Made by a program: the position numbers and the translations under genes. Under the pieces are notes generated by a model. It worked only from the letters and a program-made list of their open reading frames with translations. It made no database searches and was not told where the DNA came from. Of a stretch of DNA of 64,000 bases, positions 3,388-43,237 are shown one piece after another. This DNA is from a bacterium (GTDB taxonomy: Bacteria > SZUA-182 > DTGQ01): assembly GCA_040755755.1 (NCBI GenBank), contig JBFLZW010000061.1:1-64000 (forward strand), read 5' to 3'. How positions within the stretch are numbered: position 1 is the stretch's first letter; every line of letters starts with the position of its first letter.

Positions 3388-6300
3388 GCCTCACCTCCGT
3401 CGCTTTCCGTGTCTATCGCCCTGGCGCGCCATTGTGGAGGGTCGGAGAGTCTGGCCACGTCCATGACGAGCCGGACACCGGGTTCGACCTCCCTCATCGA
3501 AAACGGCACGGTGAATTCGTCCCAGGCCGTCGCACCGGGCTTTTTCAGGAGTGCGGCGACGTCCCCCTGACCGCGCTCGGTCTCGTAACCCAGTCTTCGT
3601 CCTGCCTTGATCGCTTCCTTCACCCATCTATCGATGCGATCCGCCACCATCGTGTCGGCACGCAACCGTGCCGCCTTGTCCTTCACTTTCCAGGCACGAT
3701 CGGAAACCACGGTTCTCACGGTGGAGGCCTCCGGTCTCCCCGAGTTGTCCAGGGTCTGGGCGCCAAGATTCGGATTCAAGGGATCGTTCACGAGGCGCAT
3801 GACGCTCACCATCGTGCCCGTCAAACCCCTGTCCAGCGCCCGAGGTGCGAAAGGCGTGACGGATTGCGCTTCCACGTGTTTGTAGAAAGTCGCGTGGTAG
3901 TGTTCGAAGGTCTCGTAGTGCGACAGGTCACGCGGACGGGACCAAGTCAGTACCGTGCAGACCAGACCCGGAAAGACACGGCCGACACGGCTGGTGGCCT
4001 GGATGTATTCCGCCGTGTTTTTGGGCTGCCCGTTGACGACCATCAGCCCGAGCCGACTTACGTCCACCCCGACGGATAGCATGTTCGTGGCGAGGACGAT
4101 GTCGATGGCGCGAGTTTCGCCTTTGGCCCAGGCCGCCTTGAACTTGACTTCCAGTTGGTCGAGCTTTCTCGGTATCTCCTTGTTCGAAACTCGAGAGGTG
4201 AGTTCGTCGACGTTTCGAATGGAGCGCTGGCTCAGCCCCGGTCGAGACACGTCGCTCATCTGGACACGATAGGAACGGGTCTGGACGTCGTCTTCCGCGA
4301 GCCGACGCATTCCGCCCAGTTCGCGTAGCGAATTGAAATAGCCCACCAGGGTCATGTACGGATCGGCCGCCTGCCCGAATCGCTCGAACAGGGATCGAGC
4401 GGCCGTGAGCAAGGCCACGTATACCCGGATGAGGACGGCGGGACGCGAGCTGCCGGGCGAACAGATGCCCATGTACCGGCGTCCGGGGTTCCTTTCGATC
4501 GAACGCTGGACGGAAAAGAAATTGTCCTCCACGTCGATGCCGTGCGGGGGAAAGACCGCCACGCGACGGAGGAAGACGTTGTTGACCTGTTCGTCGGCCT
4601 TGCGAACGGTCGCGGTCGAAGCGACGATTTTCGGTCGGACCTTCTTGCCTTCGAACGTCCACGAACAGAGTTCGTCCACGGCCGTTTCGTAAAGACCGAC
4701 CATGGTGCCCAACGGACCGCCGATGAGGTGGAACTCGTCCTGGACGATCAAATCCGGCGGACGGATCGGCGTCGTCGGTCGAGGTGTGGTCGCCGGGAGA
4801 GACCCCTTCTTCCGATGAGTGTCGCTGCAATCGGCTCCGGGCCACAGAAGCCCGTGACGCGGACATTCCGTGTCGGCTCTACCGAACAGCGTTCGCACCT
4901 GACCTCTCCAAGCCATCATGGCGAATTTGTCGACCGTGGCGATCAGCATGGAAGGTGGGTGGCGGTATATCTCGTCGTCCACGACGAGCACCGGCAGACC
5001 GAGGTCCGGCGACTTGACTTTCCCGAATTCGCAGGTTCCGTATTTGTCGCCGCAGTAGATGAACGTTCGTCCGATGTCTTTGTTCACCTTTATGTCTCGA
5101 CCGGGCACGATTTCGGAGCCGCACCAAGGACAGAAGGTGAGTTGCGCCGGTGTGGAACCGGTTCCGTACTTTCCGTCCCTTTCCCGCTCGATGGCTTCGT
5201 GGCTTTCCTGGGTGGTGTTGGGTGTCACGCGCTGTCCTACCCATAGCCCGATCATGAAAGGCGTGGCTCCCCACTTGGCGGTGTCCGCACGTCGCAGCAC
5301 CTCCATGGCGCACATCAATGCGGCGGCCCTTTGGAACTGCTGAATGGTGAGCAATCGCAGCGTGTAGCGCATGATCACCGCCAATCCCCGGCTTCCGTCG
5401 AGTCCGCCGAGGTTTCCCTGCAATCTGCGTATCGCCATGGTGAAAGCGGCCACGCCGAGGTAGGCCTCGGTCTTCCCGCCGCCGGTCGGGAACCACAGAA
5501 GATCGGCGAAGGCCTCCACCGGTTCCGTCCGGTCGCGGTGCACGGGATTCGCCAGGGCGGGAACGGACAACAGGATGAAGGCCAACTGAAACGGCCTCCA
5601 CGAGCGATTTTCGGGAACGTCGACGCTCCCGAGATCGACGGTTTCTCCCCGCCGCACCATGAGCGAATGGACGCTGTGGACACGTTGCGACGCCATCGAG
5701 CGGTTGGCGAAGCGGAACGCTTCGAGCGCAGCGTCGTCCGATTTCAGAACCTCGATCCCCTCTCGGATTCTGGCGAGCGTCGTCTCGCATCTGTCGAGGG
5801 CTGCCGTCGCCGAAGAATCGTACCCCTGCACGTCTATTCCTATTCTCGCCCGCCGCTCTCCGATCCATGCGGCGTAGTCGTCCGCCAACGCATCGAGGAC
5901 GGCGACGAGATCGGCACGTTCCATTTCCGCGAGACGCAGCATGTCGAGAGAACCGTCGGAAACGAGACGTTTCATGACGAGTCTGTCCTCCGGAGCGGTT
6001 CCGGGTGTCTCCGTAACCGAAACCTCGTACCGGGGCAAGACGCGGGTCCTGACCTCCACCGCCCGTTCCGGATCGTCGGCCGACGGTGTGGCGTGGACGG
6101 AAACTCCGTGTCCGACGGCGAACTCGACCCGCCGCCGGTAGATCATCTCCAGCGATTCGCGTTCCTCGTCCGATCCGATGCCGGACAGCAAAGGTCTCTT
6201 TCTGAAGATGGGTCGTCCTGCCGGGTCCCTGACGATCAGTTCGGGCTGGAAAACCCACGCCTGATCCTGGTTTTCGTCGGGCTTGGTCTGACCGTTCACC

Positions 6301-37507: not shown

Positions 37508-38132
37508 AATCGGGTCCTCCCGGCCTGCGCCGCAAGCGCCGCGGCGAACAGGTCTTCATGCAGGTATCCGGCGTCCATCAGTTCCCGGTTGATCCGCCCG
37601 GCTTCGATCTCCCCTCCGGAATGGACGAATACTCGTCCAGGTTCAGATCGCTGAACTGCACCCCGGTGATGGGCTGGAAGCGAACCTCGCCGGTGGACTG
37701 GAAGTCATAGCCGTAGATTCTCATGGTGAGATCGGAGCCGTTGAGCGGCGTCCATGTCTCGGCGTTGGAGCTTTCCAGCAGTACACCGGCCACATAGGTC
37801 TGCCGGGTGATGACGCCGTTCTGCCCCGGTTGCCCCAGGGTAGCGATGCGCACGCGGTAGTTGGTGCTGTTGGTGAGCAGCACGACCGCGTAGCTGGTGT
37901 CCGCCTGGGCATAGAAGGGATCGGCGAAGACGATCTTGGTCTCGGCGTTCAGGTTGACCTCGCCCGGGGCCACGACCTTTTCGGCCAGCACGACCTCGTT
38001 CGGCAGTCCGGTTGTGACTCCGCGGATCTGCACCGTCACGGGCACCGTCGCGTCTTTTTGGGTGAACCAGACGCCCACGGCGGAGATGATGCGGTTTGAT
38101 GTGCCATTTGATCCTGTTCCCCAGATAATCAA
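37504..38132 (-). pseudogene. Phage tail/baseplate protein (DUF4815-like), N-truncated and frameshifted
   Basis: VPVTVQIRGVTTGLPNEVVL, SYAVVLLTNSTNYRVRIATL and the NAETWTPLNGSDLTMRI block are typical of the C-terminal part of DUF4815-type phage tail proteins. The N-terminal part is missing; the frame begins at a junction near 38110-38130. Near 37610, at a GGGG run, the frame shifts: the frame in use ends EGRSKPGGSTGN, while the +1 frame continues GEIEAGRINRELMDAGYLHE to a stop at 37504-37506 that overlaps the next gene's ATG. That overlap shows which frame is ancestral. Confidence 0.7.
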
Positions 38133-38275
38133 AAAATATCGGTAGATATCGCTGTATATAATGTTTTCTCACGCAAGCCTGACCGGGATATGTCAGAGAC
38201 AGCCAAAGTACGCTATGAAAATGCCATAGCTTTACTCAGACGCATTGCGGATGGCACGGTCACTATCGGCCTGCT
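38131..38275 (+). pseudogene. Mu-like gp36 (DUF1320) fragment
   Basis: The plus strand encodes SVDIAVYNVFSRKPDRDMSE followed by VRYENAIALLRRIADGTVTI, which is the C-terminal part of the Mu gp36/DUF1320 family (DIA-Y-L...RYE-A...LR-IA-G). No start codon or N-terminal half is present, and the frame degrades after GL. It is oriented opposite to the tail-protein remnant that abuts it. Confidence 0.65.
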
Positions 38276-38320
38276 GCAGCAGCCAGCTCCCTGCTGCGGA
38301 CCATCGTCCAGCCAAGCTGG

Positions 38321-39544
38321 ATGTTTGCTCCGTACTCCTGCCCGTCTCATGGCATGAAGCCAGAAAATCTGACGTTGATCTTCCAGGAGGCGGTCGGCTA
38401 CATCGAAAACTTCGATGAAGCCCTGCTGGATCTGTGTGATGCCATTGGAAAAGGGTTAGCCATGTCGGAGATCATGTATGACTATTCCGAGGGGCAGGTC
38501 TGGATCAAGGAGCTGAAAAGCATCGAGCAGCGCAGATTCACCTTTGCCGATTCGGAGAACATGGGTATGGTGCTCGATTATCCGCGGCTTCTCACCGAAA
38601 ATGATCCTTTCCGGGGAGATGAGGCTGGGCAAATATAAATCGGGAACAAGCGAGAACGATATTGCGACCTTAAAACAAGCCGTATTGGCCCTTGGCGTCG
38701 ATGCGGCTGCGGTTATCTCTGACAGTACCACTATTGCACTGGTCGAAAGAAAAGGCTCTGGCAGCGGTGACTATGAAAAGCTGGCCGAATACTGCGACCG
38801 GCAGTACTCCAAAGGAGTACTCGGCCAGGTACTGACTACCGAGCCAGGGAAAACCGGCTCCCTGGCCCTGGGCCAGGTTCAGAACGAGGTCAGGCACGAT
38901 CTTCTGAAATTCGATGCCAAAGCCCTGGCCAGAGCGATTAAGTTCCAGATTCCGGCCCCGATGGTATACTTCAACTTTGGTCCAGATGCTCCGGTCCCTG
39001 ATTTTATCTTCCAGGTCGAAGCTGCCGAAAACCTGGAGAAGGTGGCCAGAGTCTATTCTATATTGCATAAAGACATAGGGCTGCCGATGTCTCAAGCCCA
39101 TATCTATGACAGATTCGGGGTTCCGGTACCCGAAGAGGGAGCCAGGCTGCTTCCGTCACCCCAGCCGCCACAGGGGCTCCCTGCCGCAGGTCCGGCAGGG
39201 GCAGCCCATGCCCTGCCCTTCCCGGCCTCCCTTGCAAAAGTGATCAGTGATCAGTGGCCAGTGATCAGTGGAAAACAGGGGAATGCAGGGGTTATATCCC
39301 CGCCCCTATGCAGGATAAGCTGGACAGCCTGACTGCCCTGATGGAGGACGGCTGGAAGGAAATTATGGCCCCGCTCATCGATCCCATCATGAAGATGGCG
39401 GCTGCAGCTCACTCTGCGGAAGAATTCAAGGAAATGCTCACCAGTGCCTTTTCGGATATGGACCCTTCCGTTCTCCAGGGAGTGCTGACCAGGGGTATGT
39501 TTATCGCCGAGATGCTTGGGCTGATGGAGGATGCCAATGGCTGA
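38321..39544 (+). pseudogene. Mu gp29-like portal protein (DUF935), broken by deletion and frameshifts
   Basis: Three consecutive pieces in two or more frames belong to one DUF935 portal protein. The first (38321-38638) has ALLDLCDAIGKGLAMSEIMY and ELKSIEQRRFTFAD. The second (about 38610-39290) has RLGKYKSGTSENDIATLKQA and VISDSTTIALVERKGSGSGD. The third (about 39290-39544) has DSLTALMEDGWKEIMAPLID. The central part that normally links FTFD to the RLGKY step is deleted near 38620, and another frame change lies near 39240-39290 beside a CAGTGATCAGTG-type repeat. Non-functional. Confidence 0.75.
39241..39271. repeat. CAGTGATCAGTG-type repeat in the portal pseudogene
   Basis: TGATCAGTGATCAGTGGCCA then GTGATCAGTG; it lies where the portal reading frame changes. 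Confidence 0.75.
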
Positions 39545-39902
39545 GCCTGCCCCTGCCATCAATTTTGCCTTTCGCCTGCCTCCAGAGGAGGCGATAAAGT
39601 ATTTTGGGCAGAAAGGGGATCGGACTACCTGGCACTGGTGGAAAACTTTGGCCAATGCGGACGCTCTCCACCAGGCTGAAATCCTCTCGTCAGGTTATGG
39701 GTATTCAGACTGGGTCAGTAAATTCCGGGCTCTTATAAAAAACCTGGGACTTGATGAGACATGCATCCTGGATGATCTTGCAAGAATCGTCAAAAATCAT
39801 CCAATATATGATTACCTGGAGCCGGTTATTCAGCTTTTGCCTGATAAATCGGGCGGGAATAAAGAAACGATCAGGAGGACGCTTTTTCACTTAGGGGGAT
39901 AG
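39537..39902 (+). pseudogene. Remnant of Mu-like head protein F joined to unknown sequence
   Basis: The first 27 residues (INFAFRLPPEEAIKYFGQKG) match the N-terminus of the Mu gpF/gp30 head morphogenesis protein, which follows the portal gene in Mu-like phages. The remaining 95 residues do not look like gpF. The open frame therefore probably spans a deletion junction. It may still be translated, since it overlaps the portal remnant in the usual way. Confidence 0.5.
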
Positions 39903-40170
39903 CGCCTTTGATGGGATCGAAAACAAAAGGATTTTCAATGAATTTTAAAGCGCTTGATTTTAAATCCTTATCGCTGATAGCAAGAGCGTACTGCCTGGCG
40001 ATATCCGTATCTCTTCGCAGAGAATACAGACAGGCAATGGCATGGGCGTTAAAATCACGGGCTCTTTCGCCTGTAGCTATGGGCTGGCCCTCAACAGGCA
40101 GTAGATCGCCCCATAGATCTACACTCTCATCTTTGGTTGGATTATGTGCCCAGAAATCAAAATTCAACAT
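39871..40170 (-). CDS. Hypothetical protein within prophage debris
   Basis: A 99-residue soluble protein (DFWAHNPTKDESVDLWGDLL; ARDFNAHAIACLYSLRRDTD) that I do not recognise. GAGGTGATCGT directly upstream of the ATG at 40170 is a strong ribosome binding site, so I think it is real. It is antisense to, and overlaps by 32 bases, the end of the gpF remnant. It could be a small morphon or cargo gene of the dead prophage. Confidence 0.55.
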   Translation of the reverse strand: MLNFDFWAHNPTKDESVDLWGDLLPVEGQPIATGERARDFNAHAIACLYSLRRDTDIARQYALAISDKDLKSSALKFIENPFVFDPIKGAIPLSEKASS

Positions 40171-40209
40171 ACGATCACCTCATCATGATTTTATGAGGTT
40201 TCAGCTTCC

Positions 40210-40330
40210 ATGTCAAACGATTTGGTAAAAATCGAGATCGATGACCGCCAGGTCAAGGAGATGCTGGCCAGGCTCAAAGCCAAACTTGACGATCTCGAGC
40301 CGGTCATGCGCCGCATTGCCCAATATAAGG
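40210..40330 (+). pseudogene. Mu gpG-like virion morphogenesis protein, N-terminal fragment
   Basis: The first 39 residues (KIEIDDRQVKEMLARLKAKL, then DDLEPVMRRIAQ) match the N-terminus of the Mu gpG / phage virion morphogenesis family. After residue 40 similarity ends and the frame runs antisense into the protease gene. This is the right edge of the prophage debris. Confidence 0.65.
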
Positions 40331-40407
40331 AAAATGAGAAGTTACTCTCAGGAACTTTGAAAATGTCCAGCAGGCCGCGAAAATCCCCTATCCACTTCAC
40401 CCTTATC

Positions 40408-42591
40408 CTATCTTCCTGCCAGATACTTTTGAAAGATAAACCGGGCATCGGAAGAGGTACATTCCTTGTCCATATCAACATCACAGCATATTTCAGAGCA
40501 GGGTCCGCAGTATGTTGTCGGACAGACATTCGAGGACTTCTCATAAAGAGCAAGAGCATCCTGTGGAGTTATCTGCCCATCCCCATTAACGTCGGCAGTG
40601 CATGACGAGGATGAGGAAGCGATAAGGCAGCCATTGGTTATTCCCCATCCCGCCATATCATCTTCCAGATTCTCCAGACACAGACTGCATTCTCCTGCCG
40701 TATGCCCAATGGGGGAAAACTGAAGAGTAACCAGTGTCCCTGTATAACCTGGGGGAATTATTCTCCCTCGACTGGAGCTATAATTATTTCCCCAACAGTG
40801 GATCTGTCCGGGCTTGATCTCCTGACAGAAAACAAGGTCAGAGCCTTTGAAAAATTGTCCCGGCTCAAACCCCAGATACGAGGTCAGAGAAGAATTATAC
40901 AGAATATCATACCCAAAGGAATTCACCTCCTGGGGCGCGTTCTGGATGCGGATATCGATCGGGCCGCTCCCCCGGCTGATGTCCAATGCACCTGAGTCAT
41001 CCCTGGAACAGTCGCAGCCGGTTTCCTTTATCCCCTGGATACAGACTTTATCCAGGCAGAACTGGGCGCCATCCATCCCCTGGTAGCGAAAGGCCAACCG
41101 AATAGGAATATTGTCAACTTCCTGCGGCAGGCGGTACCGGGTTGGTATCCATGTCCAGCTTTCATCGTCATAATCCAGGTTATCTTCCATGATATTCCCG
41201 GTGATCAGGATATCATCACCTACTCCTCCATCCCATTCTCCCCGCACTGCCCAGAGACTGACCCGGTAATGATCCTGAGACACCCCCCAGTAATAGGAGC
41301 CCATAAAGGCAAAAGCCACGGATAGGTCTTCTCCCTGAATCTTCCAGCTCATCAGTGTTTCATCCTGGGAGCGCAGGCCGGGATCGAATTCAACAGTGGC
41401 CGCCTGCAAACCCTCATAGACAGGATTATTGGAAATTTTCCAACTGTAATTGGCGTTTCTGACCTTCCTTTCCCATCCTTGAGCGAAATTTCCGCCTTTC
41501 GTTTCGAATCCCTCTTCCCTATCGCAATCCCAGGCTATGGGTGTGGAGTAATAGATCATGCTGTCCTCGATTCCGCATTCGTTTTTTCCCATCCTGATTC
41601 GAAACCATCCTGAATCTCCCCATTCCCGGCCCCAACTGTTTTTGCAGATCCAGCAGTGATCCTTGTCATCCCAGCCGGTCACGACCACGGCATGGTCCCC
41701 GATGATATATCCCTGTACGTGCTCATAAGCGCCGCGGGAATAATACATAAAGTCATCGTACACGGTCATGGCCACCAGAAGCGGCCCTTTCATCAGTTTC
41801 TGCTTGATCAGACCCGGATCAACAACCTGGGGAAAACCGCTGACCCAGTTCCAGTCAGGGATTTTCTCTATCTGACTCTCCCAATTCGGACACCGCAGCT
41901 CACAGGTCACATCCTGAGCCCTGTAGGGGAAGCATTCCTCCCGCGGCACCCCCGTGGTTTTTAAAAACGCTGCACTGCTGTCCATAAACCATCCACCGCA
42001 GCCGCCCTCACTGCAGGAGACCATAAACTGCTCTGAAAAGTCCAGGTTCAGATCAGGATTCCCCAAACCGATTTTTATCATCGTCTCCATCACGGCAATG
42101 GAGGCGTGAGCCCAACAGGAGCCGCACGATCCCTGGTTTTTGATGGAAGTGGTCCAGTTAATCTGATCCTTGCTTCGCCAGTCGAAAAAGGGAGGCAAGT
42201 CTAAAATCGGCTGCTCAGCCGAAGAAGGTATCTCCGAAGAAGATACCTCTGAAGATTCGCTCCCTCCTATTTCCCCCAGATAAGGCTTTTCTCCCGGAAA
42301 GCTCTTGGCCTTCAGATATCCTGCTCCGGGTCTGACCGGTTTTGGGGAGTTTTCATTCTGCCCGTTTCTGGTTGTTCGTCTCTTTTTTATCAATCCACAC
42401 AGATCCCGCTTCTGCTCCAGAGAGAGTTTTGACTTTGACGTCTCCCTGGCTATCCAGCGTTTTTTCTTGCTTTCAATGATTTTATTCAGGGTCTGCACAT
42501 TCAGCTCTTCTGACCTGGCCACGCCGCTCATGGCCAGAATCAGGAGAGTGAGCATCCCCATCATGAGAGATGTGGAAAATGATCTTTTCAT
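40408..42591 (-). CDS. Secreted papain-family (C1A) protease with cohesin-like and dockerin domains
   Basis: A 727-residue protein with an N-terminal signal peptide (MMGMLTLLILAMSGVA) and a short propeptide. The papain core has the nucleophile in QGSCGSCWAHASIAVMET near residue 155, the histidine in GDHAVVVTGWDD near 300 and the asparagine in WICKNSWGREWGDSGWF. A beta-sandwich segment (LMSWKIQGEDLSVAFAF to AFRYQGMDGAQFCLDKV) follows. A cohesin-like domain (IDIRIQNAPQEVNSFGYDIL to TGTLVTLQFSP) comes next, then a dockerin pair: CTADVNGDGQITPQDALALY and CCDVDMDKECTSSDARFIFQ. Having both interaction modules on one enzyme would allow self-assembly or surface docking. Confidence 0.88.
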   Translation of the reverse strand: MKRSFSTSLMMGMLTLLILAMSGVARSEELNVQTLNKIIESKKKRWIARETSKSKLSLEQKRDLCGLIKKRRTTRNGQNENSPKPVRPGAGYLKAKSFPGEKPYLGEIGGSESSEVSSSEIPSSAEQPILDLPPFFDWRSKDQINWTTSIKNQGSCGSCWAHASIAVMETMIKIGLGNPDLNLDFSEQFMVSCSEGGCGGWFMDSSAAFLKTTGVPREECFPYRAQDVTCELRCPNWESQIEKIPDWNWVSGFPQVVDPGLIKQKLMKGPLLVAMTVYDDFMYYSRGAYEHVQGYIIGDHAVVVTGWDDKDHCWICKNSWGREWGDSGWFRIRMGKNECGIEDSMIYYSTPIAWDCDREEGFETKGGNFAQGWERKVRNANYSWKISNNPVYEGLQAATVEFDPGLRSQDETLMSWKIQGEDLSVAFAFMGSYYWGVSQDHYRVSLWAVRGEWDGGVGDDILITGNIMEDNLDYDDESWTWIPTRYRLPQEVDNIPIRLAFRYQGMDGAQFCLDKVCIQGIKETGCDCSRDDSGALDISRGSGPIDIRIQNAPQEVNSFGYDILYNSSLTSYLGFEPGQFFKGSDLVFCQEIKPGQIHCWGNNYSSSRGRIIPPGYTGTLVTLQFSPIGHTAGECSLCLENLEDDMAGWGITNGCLIASSSSSCTADVNGDGQITPQDALALYEKSSNVCPTTYCGPCSEICCDVDMDKECTSSDARFIFQKYLAGR

Positions 42592-42751
42592 AGCTTCTCA
42601 CCCAATTCCTCTGATCTCGATGAAACGGTTAAATGCTCTTTAACAAAAAACCACCGCTTACAGCTTCCTGATGAGCTCACGATCAGTTCTGACGACACTG
42701 CCCAGTTGCGAATAAAATTCCCATTTCTGGTTTATTTCCTGACCGCAGAGG

Positions 42752-43237
42752 TCAATCCCTCCTGCAGGTAAACCGACCATCCCCGGCTTTCCAGCCCTTC
42801 AGATCGTCCACCGGGTTTTGCAGGCTCAAAGTGGTATTACGACAGTTGATCTTTCGAAAGTACAAGTTGACAATTTCCCCGCTCTGCCCGGCGGAAATTT
42901 TTCCCGCGCTGCCCGTGAAGCCTCCACACCTTACTACGCCAGGCTCCGCTTGAAGGCAGTCGAAAAATTTATACTTCTCTACTGCCTTTCCCCGCTCATA
43001 CCGCGTGTATTCAAGAATCTGATGGTCATAATGCACCTCAAATCCGAAAGATTGCATGGCATTCGGTGCGTTTTTCACTGAAACGGTGAACATCACGCTC
43101 TCTTTCTGATTCCCTTTCTGGTTATTGATAATCAGATTCTGACAATGCCCAATCCTCCCAGCAGAGGTCAACCAGACCACCAAAAAAGCAACAAATGCCA
43201 TAGCCTGCTTTGGTGAAACCCTATCGGTATAAGTCAT
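42752..43237 (-). CDS. Exported cohesin-like domain protein
   Basis: A 161-residue protein with a hydrophobic export signal (AMAFVAFLVVWLTSAGRIG) and a single cohesin-like beta-sandwich: VMFTVSVKNAPNAMQSFGFE, VHYDHQILEYTRYERG, then GEIVNLYFRKINC. The domain is close in pattern to the cohesin-like region of the protease downstream (NAP..-SFGF/Y...), so the two may have arisen by duplication. It could bind the protease's dockerin. It is cotranscribed in the same direction 160 bases upstream of the protease. Confidence 0.75.
   Translation of the reverse strand: MTYTDRVSPKQAMAFVAFLVVWLTSAGRIGHCQNLIINNQKGNQKESVMFTVSVKNAPNAMQSFGFEVHYDHQILEYTRYERGKAVEKYKFFDCLQAEPGVVRCGGFTGSAGKISAGQSGEIVNLYFRKINCRNTTLSLQNPVDDLKGWKAGDGRFTCRRD

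Follow-up and report, generated by a model that had tools for sequence, protein, structure and literature searches.

A papain-family protease with its own cohesin and dockerin beside a lone cohesin gene: a possible minimal assembly unit

The window analysed here, a stretch of 64,000 nucleotides from a 5.26-Mb draft bacterial genome of 88 contigs (G000), carries on its minus strand two adjacent genes. One encodes an exported papain-family protease that ends in a cohesin and a dockerin (P0001), and the other, a protein with a lone cohesin (P0002). We tentatively read the two, with slightly less than even confidence, as a dedicated minimal assembly unit in which the lone cohesin caps or shuttles the dockerin of its neighbour. 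Both genes lie where the original prediction had placed them, and their features are as follows.

40408..42591, minus strand: exported papain-family (C1A) protease with C-terminal cohesin and dockerin, P0001, 727 amino acids (aa) (open reading frame (ORF), Pfam)
41551..42198, minus strand: C1A catalytic domain, residues 132-347, with C159, H300 and N318 (Pfam; orthologue alignment)
41020..41550, minus strand: conserved middle region, residues 348-524 (60-65% identity among orthologues)
40627..41001, minus strand: in-protein cohesin of P0001, residues 531-655 (search with P0002, alignment, model)
40411..40614, minus strand: C-terminal dockerin, residues 660-727, with the inter-loop insert CPTTYCGPC (Pfam, alignment)
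40558..40593, minus strand: dockerin calcium loop 1, residues 667-678 (sequence)
40447..40482, minus strand: dockerin calcium loop 2, residues 704-715, 37 residues past loop 1 (sequence)
42752..43237, minus strand: exported single-cohesin protein with no further module, P0002, 161 aa (ORF, Pfam, model)

Comparison with 59 relatives of G000 found the pair adjacent, with order and strand the same, in three genera of the family. By rank, one of the relatives (G001) shares the genus with G000, two (G002 and G003, representing two further genera) the family, one the order and four the class; the remainder, G032 among them, shares only the domain. Full-length orthologues of P0001 were present in G002 (56% identity) and G003 (55%), each with a single-cohesin gene directly upstream on the same strand (G002, cohesin 2885-2409, then protease 2315-147; G003, cohesin 3542-4027, then protease 4080-6239; numbering of each locus) amid different neighbouring ORFs. 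Among the three orthologues, identity was 62-65% in the catalytic domain, 60-65% in the middle region, 41-54% in the in-protein cohesin, 57-59% in the dockerin and 45-51% in the lone cohesin; the dockerin is thus conserved almost as well as the catalytic domain. Two profiles built in this analysis, A3 for cohesins (E ≤ 0.001) and A4 for dockerins (E ≤ 0.01), found in G002 only the two cohesins of the pair, the dockerin of the protease, one dockerin remnant and one weak match (E 2e-4). The remnant, at C179:5344-5544(-), belongs to the class that prevails in G000 and is interrupted by a stop codon; in a genome otherwise poor in such modules, it is perhaps the leftover of a lost larger set.

P0001 matched the peptidase C1 family PF00112 with an E-value of 6e-49, and its closest solved sequences in a PDB sequence search were dipeptidyl peptidase 1 and cathepsins. 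The catalytic residues C159, H300 and N318 and the oxyanion Q153, placed by position, are kept in all three protease orthologues. The enzyme therefore has the C1 domain, the Cys-His-Asn set and the oxyanion Gln of the C1A peptidases, and the papain-family assignment with its catalytic residues, which had been predicted from the sequence, was borne out. Its N-terminus resembles a signal peptide; signal peptides, lipoboxes, hydrophobic segments and the completeness of calcium loops were judged by eye throughout. For residues 348-524, previously taken for a beta-sandwich, Pfam and PDB sequence searches gave nothing significant. An NCBIfam scan of both proteins returned no match, and whole P0001 searched against the G000 contigs matched 95 stretches by pattern, none of them a relative.

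The two cohesins were recognised by different routes. P0002 matched the cohesin family PF00963 (E 7e-8, 33.1 bits; cut-off 24.1), and its model, with a predicted local distance difference test score (pLDDT) of 87, resembled the cohesin 5nrk (Z 17.2, 129 aligned residues, 2.4 Å), the Archaeoglobus fulgidus cohesin 2xdh (Z 16.5, 122 aligned, 2.4 Å) and the Ruminococcus flavefaciens structure 4n2o (Z 13.2, 127 aligned, 2.8 Å); a PDB sequence search gave two weak cohesin matches (E 0.67 and 0.9). Pfam saw only the cohesin family in P0002 (E ≤ 1) and in its two orthologues (E ≤ 5), and the signal peptide ends in Cys-Gln in all three. P0002 is thus a stand-alone cohesin, exported, with one cohesin and no dockerin, anchor or other domain detected, which agrees with the single exported cohesin originally predicted. 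The cohesin of P0001 did not match Pfam even at E 5, and its assignment comes from the fold. P0002 as query found it at 1e-11, and the cohesin-dockerin tail aligned with 13 other tandem cohesin-dockerin tails of G000. The AlphaFold model of the tail (pLDDT 90; predicted template-modelling score, pTM, 0.71) has nine strands and two helices, and its leading PDB fold matches are cohesins (6kgc, Z 15.4, 126 aligned, 2.4 Å), in accordance with the cohesin-like domain first noticed in the protease. In a cohesin tree of 63 rows, from which loci L100 and L101 were left out, P0002 fell in a group of 18, of which 17 are labelled as coming from proteins without a dockerin (including a 310-aa protein of S24.Bin080), and the cohesin of P0001 grouped with tandem cohesins. 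Local duplication as the origin of both cohesins was not rejected (p 0.438; p 0.327 for the locus of HSG8), and for this reason we refrain from proposing that the cohesins form two ancient classes.

The dockerin of P0001 has both 12-residue calcium loops complete, DVNGDGQITPQD and DVDMDKECTSSD, and loop positions 1 and 12 are invariant in all 17 aligned dockerins. The calcium ligands, whose absence would have spoken against the predicted dockerin, are therefore present. Together with the helices at 154-164 and 191-204 of the tail model, the two loops are those of a type I dockerin. On full P0001, the Pfam profile PF00404 covered half of the dockerin with 20.4 bits, below the cut-off of 22.9, and on the isolated cohesin-dockerin piece it scored 24.3 bits, above it. 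The spacing between the loops is 37 residues in P0001, 36 in both orthologues, 37 in HSG8 and 39 in S24.Bin080, so that the long spacer also occurs in Thermodesulfobacteriota loci, unlike most of G000, where the spacing is 30 in 27 of the 33 dockerin-like segments with two readable loops (a few of them doubtful as dockerins). The two repeats of the P0001 dockerin are identical at 7 of 22 positions against 6 to 14 in other segments, a weak class mark, since 3 of the 32 other G000 segments also score 6 or 7. An unrooted tree, built on 66 columns from 54 of the 61 dockerin-like rows (7 were dropped, and PL23b_bin.63 sits on a long branch), set the P0001 group together with four rows from outside the taxonomic class, those of S24.Bin080, HSG8, PL23b_bin.63 and G032, seven rows in all, apart from 47 dockerins of the genus with support of 96/95. 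This split argues that the P0001 dockerin does not belong to the in-genus dockerin expansion. A single clade of the protease dockerins with those of S24.Bin080 and HSG8 only was neither rejected nor shown (p 0.24).

Two other explanations of this dockerin were dropped. It might have been degenerate, but the insert between the loops (CPTSCG or near) recurs in both orthologues, S24.Bin080 and HSG8. It might have been truncated by phage remnants, but its end agrees with that of both orthologues. Such remnants (portal and minor head matches and weak neck matches) lie at window positions 37578-40605 and adjoin the 3' end of the protease gene.

The pair is not the only such system of its genome. A4 and A3 gave totals of 37 dockerin and 26 cohesin matches in G000, some of them partial; Pfam gave 41 dockerin matches at E ≤ 1, 29 of which exceeded the cut-off alone, and 28 cohesin matches. 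By Pfam and P0002 searches, 44 ORFs contain a cohesin, a dockerin or both, 14 of them a cohesin followed directly by a dockerin, and many dockerins terminate in PSCLD or similar. Members include C25 peptidases, CotH and beta-helix proteins, a diheme protein, a carbonic anhydrase-like protein and a carbon monoxide (CO) dehydrogenase. In the 37 of the 44 ORFs that were scanned, no glycoside-hydrolase catalytic family or carbohydrate-binding module was found at E ≤ 0.001; the carbohydrate-related matches were a polysaccharide deacetylase (L077), CHB_HEX_C_1 (L073) and Glucodextran_B (L062), and a carrageenase-type propeller match overlaps pyrroloquinoline quinone (PQQ) propellers (L065, L069). 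The maximum per ORF was three cohesin-like domains, two of them below the cut-off. These match counts and member types place the pair in a genome with a wide non-cellulosomal set, and by Pfam the pair itself lacks the marks of a cellulosome. The search for further dockerins that had been suggested thus yielded about thirty, along with two dozen more cohesins. Of the small self-assembling complex originally envisaged, genomic evidence supports that the two genes form a unit, namely the three genera, the few other modules in G002 and an analogous pair in G032; that the dockerin binds either cohesin is a prediction. Within this module-rich genome, the two window genes give the impression of a unit of their own.

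Similar pairs occur in other lineages. G032 has one dockerin above the Pfam cut-off and one weak match, and by A4 and A3 one dockerin and two cohesins, all in a single adjacent pair. Its tandem tail was first found with P0001, and its lone cohesin was found by a profile made of G000 sequences alone (E 2e-25); the scanned part of its dockerin protein shows a beta-helix and MopE-like repeats, not a protease. A further profile, A2, with a limit of eight scored candidates per genome, gave matches at E ≤ 1e-6 in 33 of 386 genomes. Among the best 80 loci of the named collection, a cohesin followed directly by a dockerin was seen in seven (L094, L095, L096, L097, L100, L101 and L104); left out of the extraction were L174, L175, L176, L181 and L094 (second copies of loci or of genomes already included), matches with E > 1e-5 and those too partial for a class. 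In five of the seven (L095, L096, L097, L100 and L101), the next gene on the same strand encodes a cohesin without a canonical dockerin, and in L094 and L104 no such neighbouring cohesin gene was found. The five lineages are Desulfobacteraceae S24.Bin080, Desulfococcaceae HSG8, Thermodesulfobacteriota PL23b_bin.63, Euryarchaeota ARS43 and Caldilineae J4. Cohesin E-values of the re-scan are partly circular, as the profile held those rows; the G000-only profile is independent of them and finds all five neighbouring cohesins at 5e-7 or better. The lone cohesin of HSG8 is like P0002, a signal peptide and a cohesin, that of Caldilineae has a lipobox (LTSC), and that of ARS43 an N-terminal hydrophobic segment. 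Beside the tandem genes, L096 (5321-8575) and L095 (2020-2949) have further genes whose products carry a cohesin close to the N-terminus together with cadherin matches and a dockerin-like repeat of another kind; these proteins are possibly a second tier of assembly.

The unit would work as follows. The dockerin of P0001 would be bound by P0002, which would cap or carry it, and the cohesin of P0001 would take the dockerin of another protease copy. Proteases would in this way join head to tail into short extracellular chains or oligomers, whose length the lone cohesin would set. P0002 shows no visible anchor and so would more probably act as a cap or shuttle than as an anchor; in lineages whose lone cohesin has a lipobox or hydrophobic segment, that protein would anchor the chain to the cell. 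A broader proposal, which we hold to be doubtful, is that a tandem cohesin-dockerin exoprotein and a neighbouring lone cohesin make up a portable two-gene cassette for self-assembly that occurs in different bacterial phyla and perhaps in archaea, forming head-to-tail chains ended or anchored by the lone cohesin, with varying cargo of which the protease is one form, and with large networks as its expansions.

Several observations weigh against a dedicated unit. The two cohesins of the pair compete for one dockerin. The same-genus genome G001 gave no match to the protease catalytic domain among the 18 of 29 candidates scored, and it has a large cohesin-dockerin set. PF00963 lists three further matches in G002, one above the cut-off (C23, 27.9 bits), for which reason its other modules are called few and not none, and G003 has nine cohesin and six dockerin matches by Pfam, the pair included. 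Pfam detects neither cohesin of G032, which slightly lowers our confidence in the assembly unit; the profiles A2 to A4 contain rows of G032, and its pair was nonetheless found without them, by the search with P0001 and by the G000-only profile. Gene order differs as well: the other lineages have the tandem gene ahead of the lone-cohesin gene, opposite to the window family, so the arrangement may have evolved repeatedly. The 310-aa "lone" cohesin protein of S24.Bin080 (L095) ends in an atypical dockerin-like repeat. The split of lone from in-protein cohesins is weak (70/86), and of the 23 rows labelled as lacking a dockerin in their protein, 6 group with the tandem cohesins. The approximately unbiased test did not reject a grouping of P0002 with the P0001 cohesin (p 0.438).

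The abundance of modules in G000 leads directly to a competing explanation, namely that P0001 is one more client of a genome-wide network, its dockerin binding other scaffold cohesins such as a two-cohesin lipoprotein, with P0002 as an interchangeable soluble cohesin. Lipoprotein-like proteins with two cohesins are indeed present in G000 (contig C18, LFPGC) and G001 (contig C134, LLAGC), and their cohesins share a weakly supported group (70/86) with P0002. We nevertheless regard this as unlikely: G002, in which the searches showed few further modules of this kind, has the pair too, and the P0001 dockerin differs from the main class in spacing and tree position.

Less probable again is an intramolecular arrangement, in which the cohesin and dockerin of the tandem tail form a dyad within one chain and serve as a folded cap or stalk; the dockerin would then be satisfied by the adjacent cohesin, and P0002 would not be its partner. 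About ten residues separate the last cohesin strand from the first calcium loop, the tandem recurs in distant lineages, and the pTM of the tail model is moderate, all of which fit a dyad, but the neighbouring lone-cohesin gene would then be left unexplained. As a co-directional gene directly upstream of the protease, P0002 could also be a regulator, a chaperone or inhibitor that happens to have the cohesin fold; a small exported beta-sandwich calls to mind the chagasins, which are immunoglobulin-like inhibitors of papain proteases. This appears very improbable, since Pfam detects only the cohesin family in P0002 and its orthologues, and lone cohesins also adjoin tandem proteins with no protease family in their scanned parts (L095, L096, L097, L100, L101 and L185, with L096 and L185 cut by the locus start). 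The profile I42 of chagasin-type inhibitors did not match P0002 at E ≤ 1.

A non-cellulosomal cohesin/dockerin gene pair, AF2375/AF2376, is reportedly known from A. fulgidus. It resembles the window pair in having a cohesin and a dockerin in a non-cellulosomal organism, and 2xdh is among the fold matches of P0002; here, the dockerin protein is a protease, the pair was traced over three genera, and the rest of the genomes was searched for the same modules. The A. fulgidus modules are named, without the gene layout, in the text of PMC6394049 consulted.

The closest precedents come from the Clostridia, and the predicted setting outside cellulosome-forming Clostridia stands in that the source genome very likely does not belong to the Bacillota, as so large a phylum would have supplied many more close relatives than were found. 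In the portion of PMC5590126 consulted, the monovalent free scaffoldins ScaW1 and ScaW2 of Pseudobacteroides cellulosolvens are proposed to be molecular shuttles, stabilisers or regulators, a proposal that the cap or shuttle role of P0002 resembles. Like P0002, these and the R. flavefaciens stand-alone cohesins (4n2o, 4wkz) are described with one cohesin and no anchor or dockerin; as described, they belong to large cellulosomes, whereas P0002 goes with one neighbouring gene. The same portion describes ScaO and ScaP of P. cellulosolvens and A. cellulolyticus, with predicted peptidase modules, one cohesin and one dockerin. By that description, they share the make-up of P0001, the comparison covering modules and not peptidase family or gene neighbours, and unlike P0001 they are members of clostridial cellulosomes with PPC modules. 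RflaF_05439 of R. flavefaciens, with putative cysteine peptidase modules and a C-terminal X-dockerin (PMC3573020), differs in being of the NlpC/P60 superfamily and not C1A, in having no cohesin of its own mentioned in the excerpt, and in being part of a cellulosome. On these partial texts, Clostridia are thus already known to have both stand-alone cohesins and peptidases that combine a single cohesin with a single dockerin.

Outside Clostridia, cohesin and dockerin exoproteins are described in the parts consulted of PMC9012536, PMC10553843 and PMC8542988 for anaerobic methanotrophic (ANME) archaea, sulfate-reducing partners and Cloacimonadota, including C25 and S8 peptidases with dockerins in Ca. 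Stygibacter and adjacent cohesin and dockerin domains in Hot-Seep1; these parts describe no dedicated pair of a protease and a lone cohesin. Such a pair was likewise absent from the titles and abstract openings of the literature searched. As far as these sources go, what is new is that a unit of a protease and a lone cohesin was traced through several genera, together with a search of each genome for further such modules. In the portion of PMC5244752 consulted, the role of cohesins and dockerins beyond the cellulosome was called not known in 2017, and the non-cellulosomal cases reported in the texts consulted come from uncultured organisms whose sets are large, which makes it difficult to infer the binding partners. 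The pair described here consists of two genes with one dockerin and two cohesins in three genera, and as it is small and G002 and G032 have few other modules, a non-cellulosomal function would become testable with two purified proteins.

A promoter scan of the window gave 8 predictions against 3.9 (standard deviation, SD, 2.2) in shuffled sequence and a terminator scan 5 against 3.4 (SD 2.1), and these counts were not used.

Other members of the cohesin-dockerin set of G000 deserve mention. The two-cohesin proteins at C18:77518-79041(+) (L090) and in G001 C134 (L205), in which no dockerin was found and whose N-termini are lipobox-like, are candidates for a membrane-anchored scaffold of the genus. 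Three further proteins with cohesins and no detected dockerin, at C67:35800-39039(-), C13:98517-99623(+) and C33:118053-124103(+), have long tails rich in Gly, Tyr, Ser and Trp that end in an aromatic residue, a possible surface attachment signal. An anaerobic CO dehydrogenase catalytic subunit at C55:103655-105967(+) (L068; TIGR01702, 578 bits, cut-off 478) begins with what resembles a twin-arginine signal (SRRNFIK, judged by eye), carries a dockerin of the main G000 class at its C-terminus, and is apparently an exported, dockerin-tagged enzyme, as judged from its sequence; among nine genomes searched, this combination was seen only in G000, the other CO dehydrogenase matches ending before a dockerin. 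Gamma carbonic anhydrase-like proteins with a C-terminal dockerin are encoded in both genomes of the genus, at C22:174478-175707(-) in G000 (L058) and in HOT.CON.50 (L098), with NF040597 scores of 331.8 and 260.8 bits, each below the cut-off of 380, L058 being partly masked. Together with the CO dehydrogenase, they hint at extracellular C1 chemistry on the cohesin-dockerin set. A diheme protein at C76:11614-12981(-) (L070; NF041762, 451.5 bits, cut-off 300) also has a dockerin at its end.

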